Virus record (IMG/VR): IMGVR_UViG_3300046471_000128
Location: 43,510 to 107,509 of that record
Direction: 5' to 3' (one strand)
Origin: a virus
DNA length: 64,000 nucleotides
Shown here: positions 8,421 through 26,042 of the stretch, piece by piece
Position numbering within the stretch: the stretch's first letter is position 1
How the letters are laid out: the number at the start of each line of letters is the position of its first letter
Notes under the pieces: generated by a model
Told to the model about the DNA's origin: nothing
The model's input: only the letters and a program-made list of their open reading frames with translations
Databases searched by the model: none
Position numbers and translations under genes: made by a program

Positions 8421-8443
8421 CAGTAAGTAACCGGTGCCTTATC
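8421..8443 (-). promoter_or_regulatory. Recurrent dyad upstream of the tail tube gene
   Basis: The minus strand reads GATAAGGCACCGGTTACTTAC, followed by TGTAG. It starts just after the upstream gene's stop codon and about 35 bp before the tube GTG, a suitable place for a promoter or operator. Confidence 0.55.
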
Positions 8444-13625: not shown

Positions 13626-15191
13626 TTACGTGGACTTCAACATCTGATTCGCGACGGTTTTGCCACCCATCTTCTGAATCTCGGCGCTAGACATAGGCGA
13701 CTGTCCCGCGCCAGGTGCAGCCAGTGCGTCCACCGGCGGCCAGCTTTTCAACTCGCCTTTCATCTTCGTGATCAGGTCTTCCTTGAGCATCGGGAAGAGC
13801 TTGTCGATCACCGAGTCCATCTGCTGACGACGCACGCCCTCGGGCGCTTCAATCATCGCGAGGCGCGCGGCGATATCGAACTCGTCATACAGCCCGCGAA
13901 CATCGAAGTTCTTCGGGTAGGCGACCATCTGCTTCGTCACGTCGGTGGCGGTCGCATCGGGCGCCGTGTCAATCGGCTGGCCGTTGTAGAGCGCGACCAG
14001 TTGACAGAGCTTGCGTTCGACCTGTTCCAGCGCGTCGGCCTTGGCCGCCAGCAACGAATTCACTCGCTCGAAGTCGTATGCCTTTGCCACGCCGGAGCTG
14101 TTGTCGATGCCCTGCGAGTTGTCTTCCTTGGTGCGCTCGCCGGCGAGGCCGATCGAGTGGTAAATCTCGTTGATGATCTTGGAGATCACCTTGACGATCA
14201 GGTCCGCCTGCTTGACGTCCGGACTGATGAACCCGGGTTTGTCGCCGCCCGAGGCGTCGTAGGTGAAAATCCGCTTGGTGCCCATCTCCACCAGCTTGTC
14301 GTGCGCCTCGTCGCCGGCGGTGAGTGCCTGCGCGGGGATCACCAGCTGGCTGAAGGTCTGGTCCTGAATGATCGCGTCGAGGTTCGACAGGTAGTTCGCG
14401 ACCGCGCGGTCCAGATACGCGGCGTCGGCGATCAGCGCGGGCGACGTGTAGGGGTCGTCGGAGATCACGTTGTCGGCGGCGAACACCGGCACCACGCCCA
14501 GCCCGTGCACGATCGGATCGTTCACGACGATGGTCTTCTTGCCCTTCGAATCCACATCGACCTGGAACATCTGCGAGAAATCGCGCGTCCACAGGCGGTA
14601 GCGGTCGATCAGCTTGCCGCTTGACTCCATCGGGTCGGCGTCATCGCGTGCCGTCTCGTAGATCAGAATCCACTGCAGCTTCGCCAGGTCGTCATAGCTC
14701 ATGTCGAGCACATGCTGGGGCTTGACGATGTAGGCGTAGACGCGCGCGTCGGCGGCCTTCTCGTCGGCCTTGGTGGTGATGTCGGCGGTCTTCGTCGAAT
14801 CGACCACGATCCACGGCCGGCCGTAGGTTGACGCTCGGTTGCTCACGCGCTTCATGAAGTCGTCGATGGGCGACTCATTGAGTGTGGCGCGCTTCCAGAA
14901 GCTCTTGATGCACTCGGGCGCGTCGTCGTTGCGCTTGATGTCGATCTTGAACACGTATTTGTCCAACAGATCGACCACTTCGCGCGTGTGATTGAAGCGG
15001 TAGGCCCGCTGCAGCCGATGGCGATACTCCTGCTCGCCCTCTTTCACGTATTTGTGCAGGTTTTGCTTAAACCACGCCCGGCCACCCTCGTAAGTGGATT
15101 CCAGGAAGTCCCAATGCGCTTCCATCTCGGCAAACACCGGGTGGCGACGCTTGATGAACTGTTCGAGCTTCTTCTGCTGACTGAGTGCCAT
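13626..15191 (-). CDS. Portal protein
   Basis: The protein has 521 residues from ATG 15191; a GTG 36 bases upstream would place the start inside a dyad operator and is less likely. It begins with a helical N-terminus, then KRVSNRASTYGRPWIVVD, YVIKP-type sequence (AYIVKPQHVLDMSYDD), GLGVVPVF, and a long stem helix (SSGVAKAYDFERVNSLLAAKADALEQVERK). This is the pattern of DUF4055-like portal proteins. It forms the dodecameric DNA gate at the capsid vertex and docks the terminase. It follows TerL directly, as expected. Confidence 0.88.
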   Translation of the reverse strand: MALSQQKKLEQFIKRRHPVFAEMEAHWDFLESTYEGGRAWFKQNLHKYVKEGEQEYRHRLQRAYRFNHTREVVDLLDKYVFKIDIKRNDDAPECIKSFWKRATLNESPIDDFMKRVSNRASTYGRPWIVVDSTKTADITTKADEKAADARVYAYIVKPQHVLDMSYDDLAKLQWILIYETARDDADPMESSGKLIDRYRLWTRDFSQMFQVDVDSKGKKTIVVNDPIVHGLGVVPVFAADNVISDDPYTSPALIADAAYLDRAVANYLSNLDAIIQDQTFSQLVIPAQALTAGDEAHDKLVEMGTKRIFTYDASGGDKPGFISPDVKQADLIVKVISKIINEIYHSIGLAGERTKEDNSQGIDNSSGVAKAYDFERVNSLLAAKADALEQVERKLCQLVALYNGQPIDTAPDATATDVTKQMVAYPKNFDVRGLYDEFDIAARLAMIEAPEGVRRQQMDSVIDKLFPMLKEDLITKMKGELKSWPPVDALAAPGAGQSPMSSAEIQKMGGKTVANQMLKST

Positions 15192-22788: not shown

Positions 22789-24519
22789 ATGACGACTCCC
22801 ATTACCCTCGCCGCAGGTGCGGTGAACGCCAAACTGATCGGCGCGCCGCGCGAAGCGGCGCTGCTCGTGCGCGACAAGCTCTCCTACCTGGTGGACGGCG
22901 CGAGCTACTCGCAGGCGTTCAAGGGCACCTCGTGGGACGGCACGTCAAGCTTCTACGACTTCTCGACCGGCATGTTTCCGGCGGGTTTCGTCTACAAGGT
23001 CTATTCGACGCTGCTGAAAGCCGGCTACCGGGTCAACCTCGTGAGGAAGGAAGCACCGCCGCCGCTGGGCCCGGAGCGCCCCGTGGTCGACAGCTTCGGC
23101 TACGACCCGCGCTACGCCTATCAGCCCGAGGTGGCCGACAAGCTCGTCAAGCACCGGCAGGTGATCGCCCGCGTCGCGACGGGCGGGGGTAAATCCCGGA
23201 TTGCCCGCATCTGCTACAAGCGCATCGACCGGCCGACGCTCTTTCTGACCACCCGGGGCATCCTGATGTATCAGATGGGCGAAGCCGTCGAAGAGAACCT
23301 CGGCGAGCGCGTGGGCGTCGTGGGCGACAGCCAGCGGGACTTCTCCCGCAAGTTTACGCTCGGGATGGTGCAGACGATTAGCCAGGCGATCGACAAGTGG
23401 ACCGACGACGGGGAGCTCCTCGCCTACATCAAGAACCGGGATGCGGCCGAAGACCGCGAGGTCGTGAAGCTGCAGACGCGGCTCAAGAAGCAAAAGCTGC
23501 CGCTCGGCCAGGTCGCCGACGCCACCACCGCGCTCAGGAAGACGCTCGAAGCGCAGCGCCCCGCCGACGCGCAGGTCGTGGCCGACATCCAGGCGAAGGT
23601 GCGGGATCACAACCGCAAGCGCGAGGAAATGATCGCCTTCCTGGCGAAAATTGAATTCGTTATTCTCGAGGAAGCGCATGAGGCGTCCGGCGAGGGCTTC
23701 TACGAGATCATGCGGCACTGCGTGAACGCCCACTACCGGTTGGCACTCACCGCCACGCCGTTCATGAAAGACAGCCCCGAAGCGAACATGCGGCTCGAGG
23801 CGTGCTCCGGGCCCGTGGCGATCACGGTCACTGAGAAGCAGCTGATCGACCTCGGCGTGCTTGCGCGGCCGTTCTTCAAGTTCGTGCGGCTGCAGAACGC
23901 GGCGCCCTCGTATGTCGAGACGGTCGAGAGCAAGGGAATCACGCGCCAAGTCACGCACCGGCTGTTCCGCTCGACCCCGTGGCCGAAATGCCTCGAGATC
24001 GGCGTGGTCCACAACGAGGAGCGCAACCGCGCGATCGTCTATGAGGTGAGCCGCGCGAAGCAATACGGGCTGCCGTCGATGATTCTGGTCGGCCGCCAGG
24101 AGCACGGCAAGAAGCTCGTGGAGATGCTCACGCAGGCGGGCGTGCGCTGCGCATTCATCTTCGGTGAGCACAACCAGAAGGAGCGCAAGGCCGCGCTCAA
24201 CGCGCTCGCACAGGGCAAGATCGACGCGCTGATCGGCTCGACCATCCTCGACGTGGGCGTCGATGTGCCCGCCGTCGGCATGATCGTGCTCGCGGGCGCG
24301 GGCAAAGCCGAGGTCCAGGCCCGCCAGCGCATCGGCCGGGGTCTGCGCGCGAAGAAGAAGGGGCCGAACGTTGCGTTCGTGGTCGATTTCATCGAAGCAG
24401 CCAACAGCACGCTGCGGGACCACCAGAACGAGCGCCTGTCGATCATTCAGAGCACGCCGGGCTTTGCCGAGAACATCGTGAGCGACTTCGACTACTCGAT
24501 TTTCAGGGAGGCGGCGTGA
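22789..24519 (+). CDS. SF2 DEAD/DEAH-type helicase (UvsW-like)
   Basis: The protein has 576 residues, one of the few plus-strand genes. Motifs: I RVATGGGKSRIA (about residue 133), Ia LTTRG, II VILEEAHE (DEAH variant EEAH), III LALTATPF, IV to VI with LIGSTILDVGVDVP and ARQRIGRGLRAKK. The order matches UvsW-like SF2 helicases of phages that unwind branched recombination intermediates. An N-terminal ~100-residue extension precedes the helicase core. Its stop is two bases from the convergent TIR gene's stop. Confidence 0.92.
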   Translation: MTTPITLAAGAVNAKLIGAPREAALLVRDKLSYLVDGASYSQAFKGTSWDGTSSFYDFSTGMFPAGFVYKVYSTLLKAGYRVNLVRKEAPPPLGPERPVVDSFGYDPRYAYQPEVADKLVKHRQVIARVATGGGKSRIARICYKRIDRPTLFLTTRGILMYQMGEAVEENLGERVGVVGDSQRDFSRKFTLGMVQTISQAIDKWTDDGELLAYIKNRDAAEDREVVKLQTRLKKQKLPLGQVADATTALRKTLEAQRPADAQVVADIQAKVRDHNRKREEMIAFLAKIEFVILEEAHEASGEGFYEIMRHCVNAHYRLALTATPFMKDSPEANMRLEACSGPVAITVTEKQLIDLGVLARPFFKFVRLQNAAPSYVETVESKGITRQVTHRLFRSTPWPKCLEIGVVHNEERNRAIVYEVSRAKQYGLPSMILVGRQEHGKKLVEMLTQAGVRCAFIFGEHNQKERKAALNALAQGKIDALIGSTILDVGVDVPAVGMIVLAGAGKAEVQARQRIGRGLRAKKKGPNVAFVVDFIEAANSTLRDHQNERLSIIQSTPGFAENIVSDFDYSIFREAA

Positions 24520-24521
24520 TG

Positions 24522-25295
24522 TTAAGTCCAGTTTCGTTCCAGTGCCAACGCTTCTCCTTGCTTCGTCAAACCGAGTGTATCCACCGCATAACCCGGCAAT
24601 ACCGTAACGTAGCTAGCCAGCTTGTCGACAGAGTGAGCAAATCGCAGCTTCGACACCTTCAAGTCGCGCATAAGATCGACCGAAGCGATCGCTCCATAAT
24701 GGGCAAGCAGCCTGATCATTTTCTCCTCGACCGGTGAAAATGCATGCTCGGCAGGAGCTGCTGGCGTTGCGCGAGCGGCCGGCTCGGCGAAGTCAGTTTG
24801 CGCGGGAGCGGGCTGAACCTTATCGAACGCCTTCGCAACGCCGCCCTCCAGTCCCGTCCACCCTCGCTCGAAGCGTTCTCGCAACGCCGACTCCTTTTCT
24901 GGGGCTTCGTTGGCAGTGTTGATCGCTATGACCAGGGCGAGAAAGTCCTCTTTCTCGAACACCGTAGCTTGGAACTGTGCAAGCGGGGAGGGCAATCTGC
25001 TCTTGTCGACGCGAAGGCACAGTGGATGGATCGCCGCGTTAGCCATTGACTTTGAGAGCGCGCCCGCTTCGAAATGAAGCCACGGTTCCTGCATGTTGTC
25101 CTGCGTGACGCATATGATGCCGACGTTCGTGCTGTCGAGTTCCTGCGCGAGTTGCAGCCCCCACCGCCGCCCCTTCTGAAGATCGGCATCAGACACCCAA
25201 ACGTCGGCCGTGCGAAGCGTCATTTCGAGAAAGTGCTTCAGCTCCACAGCGATCGTTTTCGCCGGCTCTTTGGACCAGCTTACGAATATCTTCAT
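24522..25295 (-). CDS. TIR-domain protein with C-terminal winged helix
   Basis: The protein has 257 residues from ATG 25295 (an in-frame ATG nine bases upstream is possible). The TIR core begins MKIFVSWSKEP, with DVWVSDADLQKGRRWGLQLAQEL, VGIICVTQDN, and WLHFEAGALSKS, where the Glu (residue 76) is in the place of the catalytic Glu of NAD-cleaving TIRs. A Pro/Ala linker leads to SPVEEKMIRLLAHYGAIASVDLM and RFAHSVDKLASYVTVLPGYAVDTLGLTKQG, a winged-helix-like end. A phage gene with a TIR domain is unusual; it may block superinfecting phages or host defence. Confidence 0.8.
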   Translation of the reverse strand: MKIFVSWSKEPAKTIAVELKHFLEMTLRTADVWVSDADLQKGRRWGLQLAQELDSTNVGIICVTQDNMQEPWLHFEAGALSKSMANAAIHPLCLRVDKSRLPSPLAQFQATVFEKEDFLALVIAINTANEAPEKESALRERFERGWTGLEGGVAKAFDKVQPAPAQTDFAEPAARATPAAPAEHAFSPVEEKMIRLLAHYGAIASVDLMRDLKVSKLRFAHSVDKLASYVTVLPGYAVDTLGLTKQGEALALERNWT

Positions 25296-25386
25296 GGACC
25301 CCATCCGAACGATTAATGCGGCAATATTCGGATTATACCGGCCACTGACCGCCGTTCTTATGTGGTGTCATTCGGCGGCTTCGGAT

Positions 25387-25408
25387 AAAGTAAGCTATAG
25401 CTTACTTT
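25387..25408. promoter_or_regulatory. Perfect 22-bp palindrome before a small membrane gene
   Basis: The half-site AAAGTAAGCTA is repeated exactly as its reverse complement with no spacer. It is followed by AAAGGAG (ribosome binding site) and the ATG at 25421. The GTAAGC/GCTTAC halves are related to the recurrent dyad, with TATAG at the centre. It is probably an operator controlling this gene, and perhaps the divergent TIR gene starting at 25295. Confidence 0.7.
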
Positions 25409-25420
25409 AAAGGAGAAGCC

Positions 25421-25651
25421 ATGTTCCCCTCGCGCGTTCCGGTGCTGTATCTGTTTCACATCGCCTGCGTCATCGGCATCATCGCGCTCGTGGTCATCTG
25501 GACCAGCAACCCTCTGGCCCTGCTCGCGCTGAACTTCCTGCCCGACGTGCCGCTCATGCAAGACCCCGAGCAGGTCGCCCGTATTGGAGCCATCGAGCGT
25601 GAGCTCGAGGATGCCGACGGCGGCTCTGGGAATCCGATTGGGTTCATGTAG
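25421..25651 (+). CDS. Small single-span membrane protein
   Basis: The protein has 76 residues with a strong ribosome binding site (AAAGGAG, 6 bp spacing). One hydrophobic segment (LYLFHIACVIGIIALVVIW, residues ~9-27) is followed by a short acidic tail (EQVARIGAIERELEDADG). It has its own palindromic operator upstream and its own terminator downstream, so it is a stand-alone transcription unit beside the TIR gene. A role in membrane-based exclusion is possible but there is no direct evidence. Confidence 0.75.
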   Translation: MFPSRVPVLYLFHIACVIGIIALVVIWTSNPLALLALNFLPDVPLMQDPEQVARIGAIERELEDADGGSGNPIGFM

Positions 25652-25671
25652 CCCAAGCCCCACCCTTCCCG

Positions 25672-25700
25672 AACGGCGCGCAATGCGCCGTTTTTCGTTT
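25672..25700 (+). terminator. Rho-independent terminator
   Basis: Perfect 8-bp stem AACGGCGC/GCGCCGTT with loop GCAAT and a following TTTTTCGTTT on the plus strand, just after the small membrane gene. Confidence 0.88.
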
Positions 25701-25757
25701 GGATCTGCCGCGTTGCCTATAATTATAAATATGACATAACCATAGGGTCGCATAACA

Positions 25758-26042
25758 ATGACCGATCGCCTTCGCACCGCCATCGCCCTCACCGACACCT
25801 CGCGGGAGCGCCTCGCACGGATGGCCGAGGTCGCCGGGCTCTCCCAGAACGCCACTCTCGAGTCGATTATCCTCGGCATCACCGACGACGAACTGCGCAC
25901 GATTGCCGCCCGGGGCAACGTCGTGGTGAAGGCAGAGAAACGGGAGCGTCTCGCCCAGAAGCGGGCCATTCGCGAGAAGCTCGCCGCGCTCACGCCGGCC
26001 GAGCAGGAGCGTCTTTTCAAACTAGCCAAGGACGAAAAATGA
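25758..26042 (+). CDS. Hypothetical helical protein, possibly DNA-binding
   Basis: The protein has 94 residues. It is preceded by AT-rich DNA with TATAATTATAAATATGACAT, which may contain its promoter. The N-terminus (RLRTAIALTDTSRERLARMAEVAGLSQNATLESIILG) has the strand-helix-helix look of ribbon-helix-helix regulators, and the rest is a basic helix. The stop overlaps the next ATG (ATGA). Function unknown; the RHH suggestion is weak. Confidence 0.68.
   Translation: MTDRLRTAIALTDTSRERLARMAEVAGLSQNATLESIILGITDDELRTIAARGNVVVKAEKRERLAQKRAIREKLAALTPAEQERLFKLAKDEK

Follow-up and report, generated by a model that had tools for sequence, protein, structure and literature searches.

A TIR-domain gene, probably for defence, carried alone in a variable cargo slot of an apparent phage-plasmid

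The nearest tested relative of the TIR-domain protein described here is encoded by the P2-like phage AC1. E. coli C lysogenic for AC1 is protected from lambda and from LF82_P8, three cloned AC1 genes reproduce the protection and also block P2, and Rousset et al. (2022) proposed that the AC1 TIR protein makes a nucleotide signal for its associated membrane proteins (PMC9122126). SpbK, the TIR protein of the mobile element ICEBs1, is a single-gene abortive-infection system in which contact with a phage portal protein brings about the loss of NAD+ (PMC11984713). Phage mEp390 and an E. coli prophage (CP099174) each carry a solo TIR gene of the same clade as the one treated here, oriented opposite to its neighbours and placed between the Q and holin genes. 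The TIR fold is further shared by Thoeris ThsB, the TIR proteins of CBASS and Pycsar, and the TIR-APAZ protein of SPARTA.

The window analysed here, a stretch of 64,000 nucleotides, covers bases 43,510 to 107,509 of a virus record of 107,509 bp. The record combines phage genes (matches to a terminase and a major capsid protein) with plasmid genes, namely a Rep3 initiator (Rep3_N, E 4.9e-34) and a ParA-type ATPase. Structural genes and genes for plasmid replication and partition on one genome are the mark of a phage-plasmid, and the 107-kb phage appears to live as a plasmid. The core gene order of ABC ATPase, ParB/Srx, ParB and helicase is common to circular plasmids of Cupriavidus (107 kb) and Acinetobacter (114 kb), the nearest named plasmid found for the lineage being that of Cupriavidus (Burkholderiales). 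Outside the window, 29.8 kb before its start, an inverted repeat with arms of 15 bp each, AGGTATGTTGGTATC-AA-GATACCAACATACCT, lies at record positions 13697-13728; the ParA gene follows some 125 bp downstream, and the repeat is a candidate partition site or operator.

The TIR protein is encoded by an intact open reading frame of 260 amino acids at 24522-25304 on the minus strand. It is convergent with a DEAD/DEAH (UvsW-like) helicase gene at 22789-24519 on the plus strand, whose conserved gene flanks the slot described below on its left, and the two stop codons (24519 and 24522) lie 2 bp apart. An earlier note, written from the letters of the DNA, had already read a TIR gene convergent with the helicase at this place, and the intact frame together with matches to Pfam TIR_2 and PADLOC TIR-TM bears this out. 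Translation probably begins at the second ATG, at 25295, because nearly all homologues start at the position of M4; a GGATGGGG stretch precedes this ATG. Farther upstream, at 25332-25337 on the minus strand, a TATAAT hexamer that the consensus promoter scan missed can be read as a candidate -10 box, with no good -35.

Family matches are confined to the N-terminal 169 residues: Pfam TIR_2 matches at E 2.9e-8, above its cut-off, PADLOC TIR-TM at E 6.5e-49 over residues 4-169, and phrog_13899 at E 2.3e-45 over residues 4-165, the stretch that we take as the TIR domain. When the protein is aligned with relatives from bacterial and viral contigs (61 sequences in all), W10, G45, L56, G62, N70, W75, E79, G81 and P107 are invariant in every sequence. 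The protein carries the motifs of the AC1/TIR_2 clade, a SWSG-like start and WxxFEAGAL with its glutamate, and so belongs to that clade; E79, the glutamate of WxxxE, is presumably the catalytic residue expected of NAD-consuming TIR domains. AlphaFold predicts a confident TIR fold, with pLDDT mostly above 90 for residues 1-163, whose closest Foldseek matches are the TIR domains of SPARTA TIR-APAZ, plants and SARM1, with ThsB and SpbK also matched. Scanning viral contigs with the TIR protein as a single-sequence query returned no relatives, because the exact short peptides used are absent elsewhere, and it was alignment-based scans that supplied the 160 TIR loci compared here (80 + 80). Even the closest relatives reach only about 44% identity. 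A simple hydropathy scan finds a transmembrane segment in the C-terminus of just one of the 160 clade proteins, so the name TIR-TM should be taken as the label of a system; it does not imply that the TIR protein is anchored in the membrane.

The AC1 TIR protein is 37% identical over residues 2-164 and is likewise cargo in a temperate-phage hotspot, but the type of phage and the slot differ, and its C-terminus is unrelated to the one found here. The PADLOC TIR-TM profile is covered over positions 1-167 of 293 (165 bits) by the window's protein, against 1-286 (393 bits) by that of AC1. The AC1 proteins match PADLOC TIR-TM, 1TM-TIR and 2TM-TIR; homologues of the two membrane proteins are absent from the 107.5-kb record and present in just 2 of the 160 TIR loci (L128 and L129). 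With partial profile coverage and both membrane partners absent, membership of the AC1-type PADLOC system 2TM-1TM-TIR was rejected. The solo TIR proteins of mEp390 and CP099174 also differ, with about 30% identity, other C-termini and a lambdoid location. The likeness to SpbK is at the level of the fold (its TIR filament, 9phb, is matched with a TM-score of 0.70 by target). The TIR domain of SpbK is C-terminal; that of the window's protein is N-terminal and followed by an unrelated C-terminus. Profile matches to the CAP12/Pycsar TIR and to Thoeris ThcB4 are weak, all of them below curated cut-offs, and among the adjacent genes that were read no ThsA, cyclase or short Ago was noticed.

Comparison with relatives places the gene in a variable cargo slot that extends from the helicase stop codon to a palindrome (24520-25385). 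DNA similarity to the related loci L003 and L004 ends at 24517-24519 and resumes at 25384-25386; because it breaks at the helicase stop and returns at the palindrome, what differs is the TIR gene together with the region upstream of it. The right edge of the slot could be near 25357, as a resemblance to L011 and L013 begins roughly 30 bp before the palindrome. A first helicase scan of genome contigs found nothing; related loci were obtained with a helicase query (4), a helicase alignment query (12) and a query with the membrane gene that follows the palindrome (6), and the helicase and membrane gene searches, pooled, yielded nine slots, on eight contigs, that could be read from the helicase gene to the membrane gene or to whichever gene came next. 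In six of the nine the cargo is a YoeB-type toxin gene, in most cases alongside a YefM-like antitoxin, and the other three have no recognisable cargo. In L003 and L011 the slot holds a YoeB toxin (Pfam YoeB, E 2.6e-28 and 1.7e-33) together with a YefM-like antitoxin; in L005, L013, L016 and L206 it holds a YoeB toxin whose antitoxin is less clear or unrecognised (the L013 cargo being assigned solely through its resemblance to L011); and in L004, its near-twin L006, and L201 it holds nothing recognisable. None of the nine contains the TIR gene, which was also found nowhere in seven related phage records; matches to YoeB elsewhere in this genome are weak and short. The variable slot of this phage-plasmid thus carries the TIR gene as a cargo of one gene, and the GC3 of the TIR gene, 0.67, compares with 0.89 for the helicase gene and 0.83 for the membrane gene.

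Some of the related loci have features of their own. Between two cargo modules of the L016 slot lies a broken copy of the start of the membrane gene, with its palindrome, that shares 91% identity with the window's copy and is less close to the intact one of L016 itself; it is followed by what appear to be the last codons of a helicase gene. The arrangement resembles a scar left when recombination joined two slots by way of their flanking genes, with a small chance of an assembly artefact because the contig holds two related phage genomes. Contig IMGVR_UViG_3300046694_000296, of 215,656 bp, holds L014 and L016, two related but different phage copies about 107 kb apart, whose membrane genes are 66% and 61% identical to that of the window; the contig is either a co-integrate or an assembly chimera. 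Downstream of the slot, L003 (7933-8673) and L005 (7581-8282) carry an open reading frame with the motif MCGR.SRARQGL, not seen at that place in the window, which looks like another accessory gene, for an SOS-response-associated (YedK/SRAP-like) protein.

To the right of the slot stands a perfect palindrome of 24 bp, TAAAGTAAGCTATAGCTTACTTTA, at 25386-25409, which a script over the whole 107,509-bp record found to be its longest gap-free palindrome. The earlier note had recognised the element, as a 22-bp palindrome at 25387-25408; the element is real, and its size and position needed correction. Its left arm holds a -10-like box for the membrane gene, TAAAGT (TAAAGT or TAGAGT across relatives), and its outer half-sites AAGTAA/TTACTT are kept across relatives while the central bases vary, in L016 to the point that not all of them still pair. 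Such a pattern is more in keeping with a dyad to which protein binds than with the stem of an RNA, and the element is best described as a putative operator of the membrane gene, bound perhaps by a phage or host factor. Reading it as an RNA hairpin or terminator, as a T run after the palindrome in relatives might suggest, was set aside, since the half-sites are kept while the centre no longer pairs throughout in L016.

The gene that this putative operator adjoins, at 25421-25651 on the plus strand, is preceded by an AAGGAG ribosome site and encodes a protein of 76 amino acids with a hydrophobic N-terminal half; an intrinsic-terminator-like hairpin (25671-25693, plus strand) comes after it, and the small membrane gene with its terminator is as the earlier note had it. 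The protein was seen only in this phage lineage. In six of the nine related slots the membrane gene is present, immediately preceded by the palindrome and without a TIR gene, and the membrane gene stands beside a TIR gene in none of the 160 other TIR loci; its product matches no PADLOC model, 1TM-TIR and 2TM-TIR included. Relatives and profile searches thus mark it as a gene of the phage lineage and not a TIR partner; together with the palindrome it presumably does a separate job for the phage, unrelated to the TIR gene. It follows that of the moron cassette proposed for 24522-25700 only one part survives: the TIR gene by itself is moron-like, being absent from the seven related records, different in GC3 and bounded by a break in homology, but palindrome and membrane gene are kept by the lineage, and the cassette is not self-contained. 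A TIR gene with a transmembrane partner was a good lead from known systems that fails at this locus. The proposed autoregulation of the TIR gene through the palindrome is unlikely as well. Relatives that lack the TIR gene keep the element, which argues that the TIR protein is not the factor for which it evolved, and the element overlaps the -10-like box of the membrane gene; binding by the TIR protein is accordingly improbable on the present comparison.

Two further sets of putative control elements were noted. The 42 bp at 25716-25757, upstream of a gene of 94 amino acids that begins at 25758, are 93% identical to L003, above the level of the surrounding genes, and are possibly a conserved control region. 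Across the whole record, dyads of the form RTAAS-N6-STTAY occur in 16 copies against 0.1 expected under a first-order Markov model, 13 of the 16 between genes, and a spacing of 6 is sharply preferred; examples in the window lie at 8427, 12611, 17287, 22743, 47986, 53953 and 62704. Many directly adjoin a TATAAT box, the longer copies read ATAAGTNACSSGTNACTTAT, and the family looks like a set of phage promoters under the control of an activator or a repressor. The 24-bp palindrome fits the loose pattern of this family but differs in its inner bases and in the spacing of its half-sites.

We consider it reasonably likely that the TIR gene is a single-gene abortive-infection moron, swapped into the phage-plasmid slot, that protects the lysogen from rival phages. 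We read it as cargo of this kind because of the phage-plasmid context, the solo TIR genes of the same clade in lambdoid phages and the example of SpbK, which acts alone; against it counts that the closest tested system, AC1, was cloned with membrane genes that are absent here. The gene would have been swapped in between the helicase gene and the lineage-conserved operator with its small membrane gene. The C-terminal region of its product would sense an infecting rival phage, the TIR domain would then consume NAD+ or make a signal from it, and the host cell would be stopped or killed before the rival multiplies, so that other lysogens would be protected. NADase activity, sensing and defence are what we infer for the protein, whose use to the phage could also be a different one, for example in plasmid maintenance or counter-defence.

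The proposed sensor or regulatory domain is the C-terminal region (residues 181-260; 24525-24764, minus strand), and since it has no homologue the sensor role is a guess. For about residues 166 to 260, the 160 TIR proteins yielded no relative below an E of 0.1, Pfam gave no match and plasmids no relative, and 274 genomes, all from one class and searched at E 1e-4 without a positive control, gave none either. The C-terminus is clearly modular within the TIR clade. A different account takes this region for a DNA-binding winged helix, which would make the protein a TIR-linked regulator or a DNA-sensing effector; it may bind its own promoter or invading DNA, and the binding would switch the TIR domain on. 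AlphaFold predicts three helices in HTH-like order, with pLDDT mostly 45-80 in context and a mean of 52 for the region alone; the best NCBIfam match is MntR, over residues 197-256 at E 0.026, far below its cut-off, and for another clade member from a virus, the TIR protein of L114, the C-terminus gives better but still weak matches to transcriptional-regulator and winged-helix models. The window's own protein has no significant profile match, however, Foldseek with the low-confidence C-terminal model returned no fold match (a result that is meaningless at such confidence), and the occurrence of the palindrome in relatives without a TIR gene means that it did not arise as a TIR operator. A winged helix is possible and weakly suggested, and the account built upon it seems to us unlikely. 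A narrower version, in which one protein senses DNA or a DNA-bound phage regulator through a C-terminal winged helix and triggers the destruction of NAD+, carried in a slot dedicated to defence and toxin cargo that the lineage exchanges by recombination between the flanking genes, is distinctly improbable. The viral protein just mentioned, present in L114 and L115 (5001-5759), is a better candidate for a TIR protein with a winged helix than that of the window; in L114 its C-terminus is matched by phrog_2440 (E 0.0024), Penicillinase_R (E 0.03) and a CARF-family profile (E 0.001).

That the TIR gene replaces the YefM/YoeB pair in function as well as in place, either keeping the plasmid state stable as an addiction module does or blocking superinfecting relatives, is an account that we regard with considerable doubt. 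The slot otherwise holds YoeB-type toxins, usually with YefM-like antitoxins, and the genome has Rep3 and ParA, both of which speak for the account. But the TIR gene stands alone, with no antitoxin, and TIR NADases are normally silent until triggered; toxin-antitoxin pairs, moreover, may be defence cargo themselves, so that sharing a slot with them does not discriminate. It is very improbable that TIR and membrane genes form a two-gene defence unit under shared palindromic control, in which a nucleotide signal opens or triggers the membrane protein, for although the two genes lie side by side in divergent orientation, the membrane protein is small and hydrophobic in its N-terminal half, and AC1 works with transmembrane genes, the membrane gene occurs without the TIR gene in relatives, in none of the other TIR loci and outside the 1TM-TIR and 2TM-TIR models, and its GC3 is unlike that of the TIR gene.

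Single-gene defence cargo thus remains the reading that we prefer; the find is probably a fairly ordinary example of it, and the gene a TIR defence gene. With the parts that belong to the TIR gene told apart from those that belong to the phage, the membrane gene is not the first-choice candidate for a partner. The replaced C-terminus suggests that one clade of TIR proteins may be re-wired to different triggers. For a little-studied lineage of phage-plasmids, the comparison reveals a cargo hotspot in which a TIR gene and YefM/YoeB-type modules replace each other, and the slot is a place to look for further defence genes of these elements.
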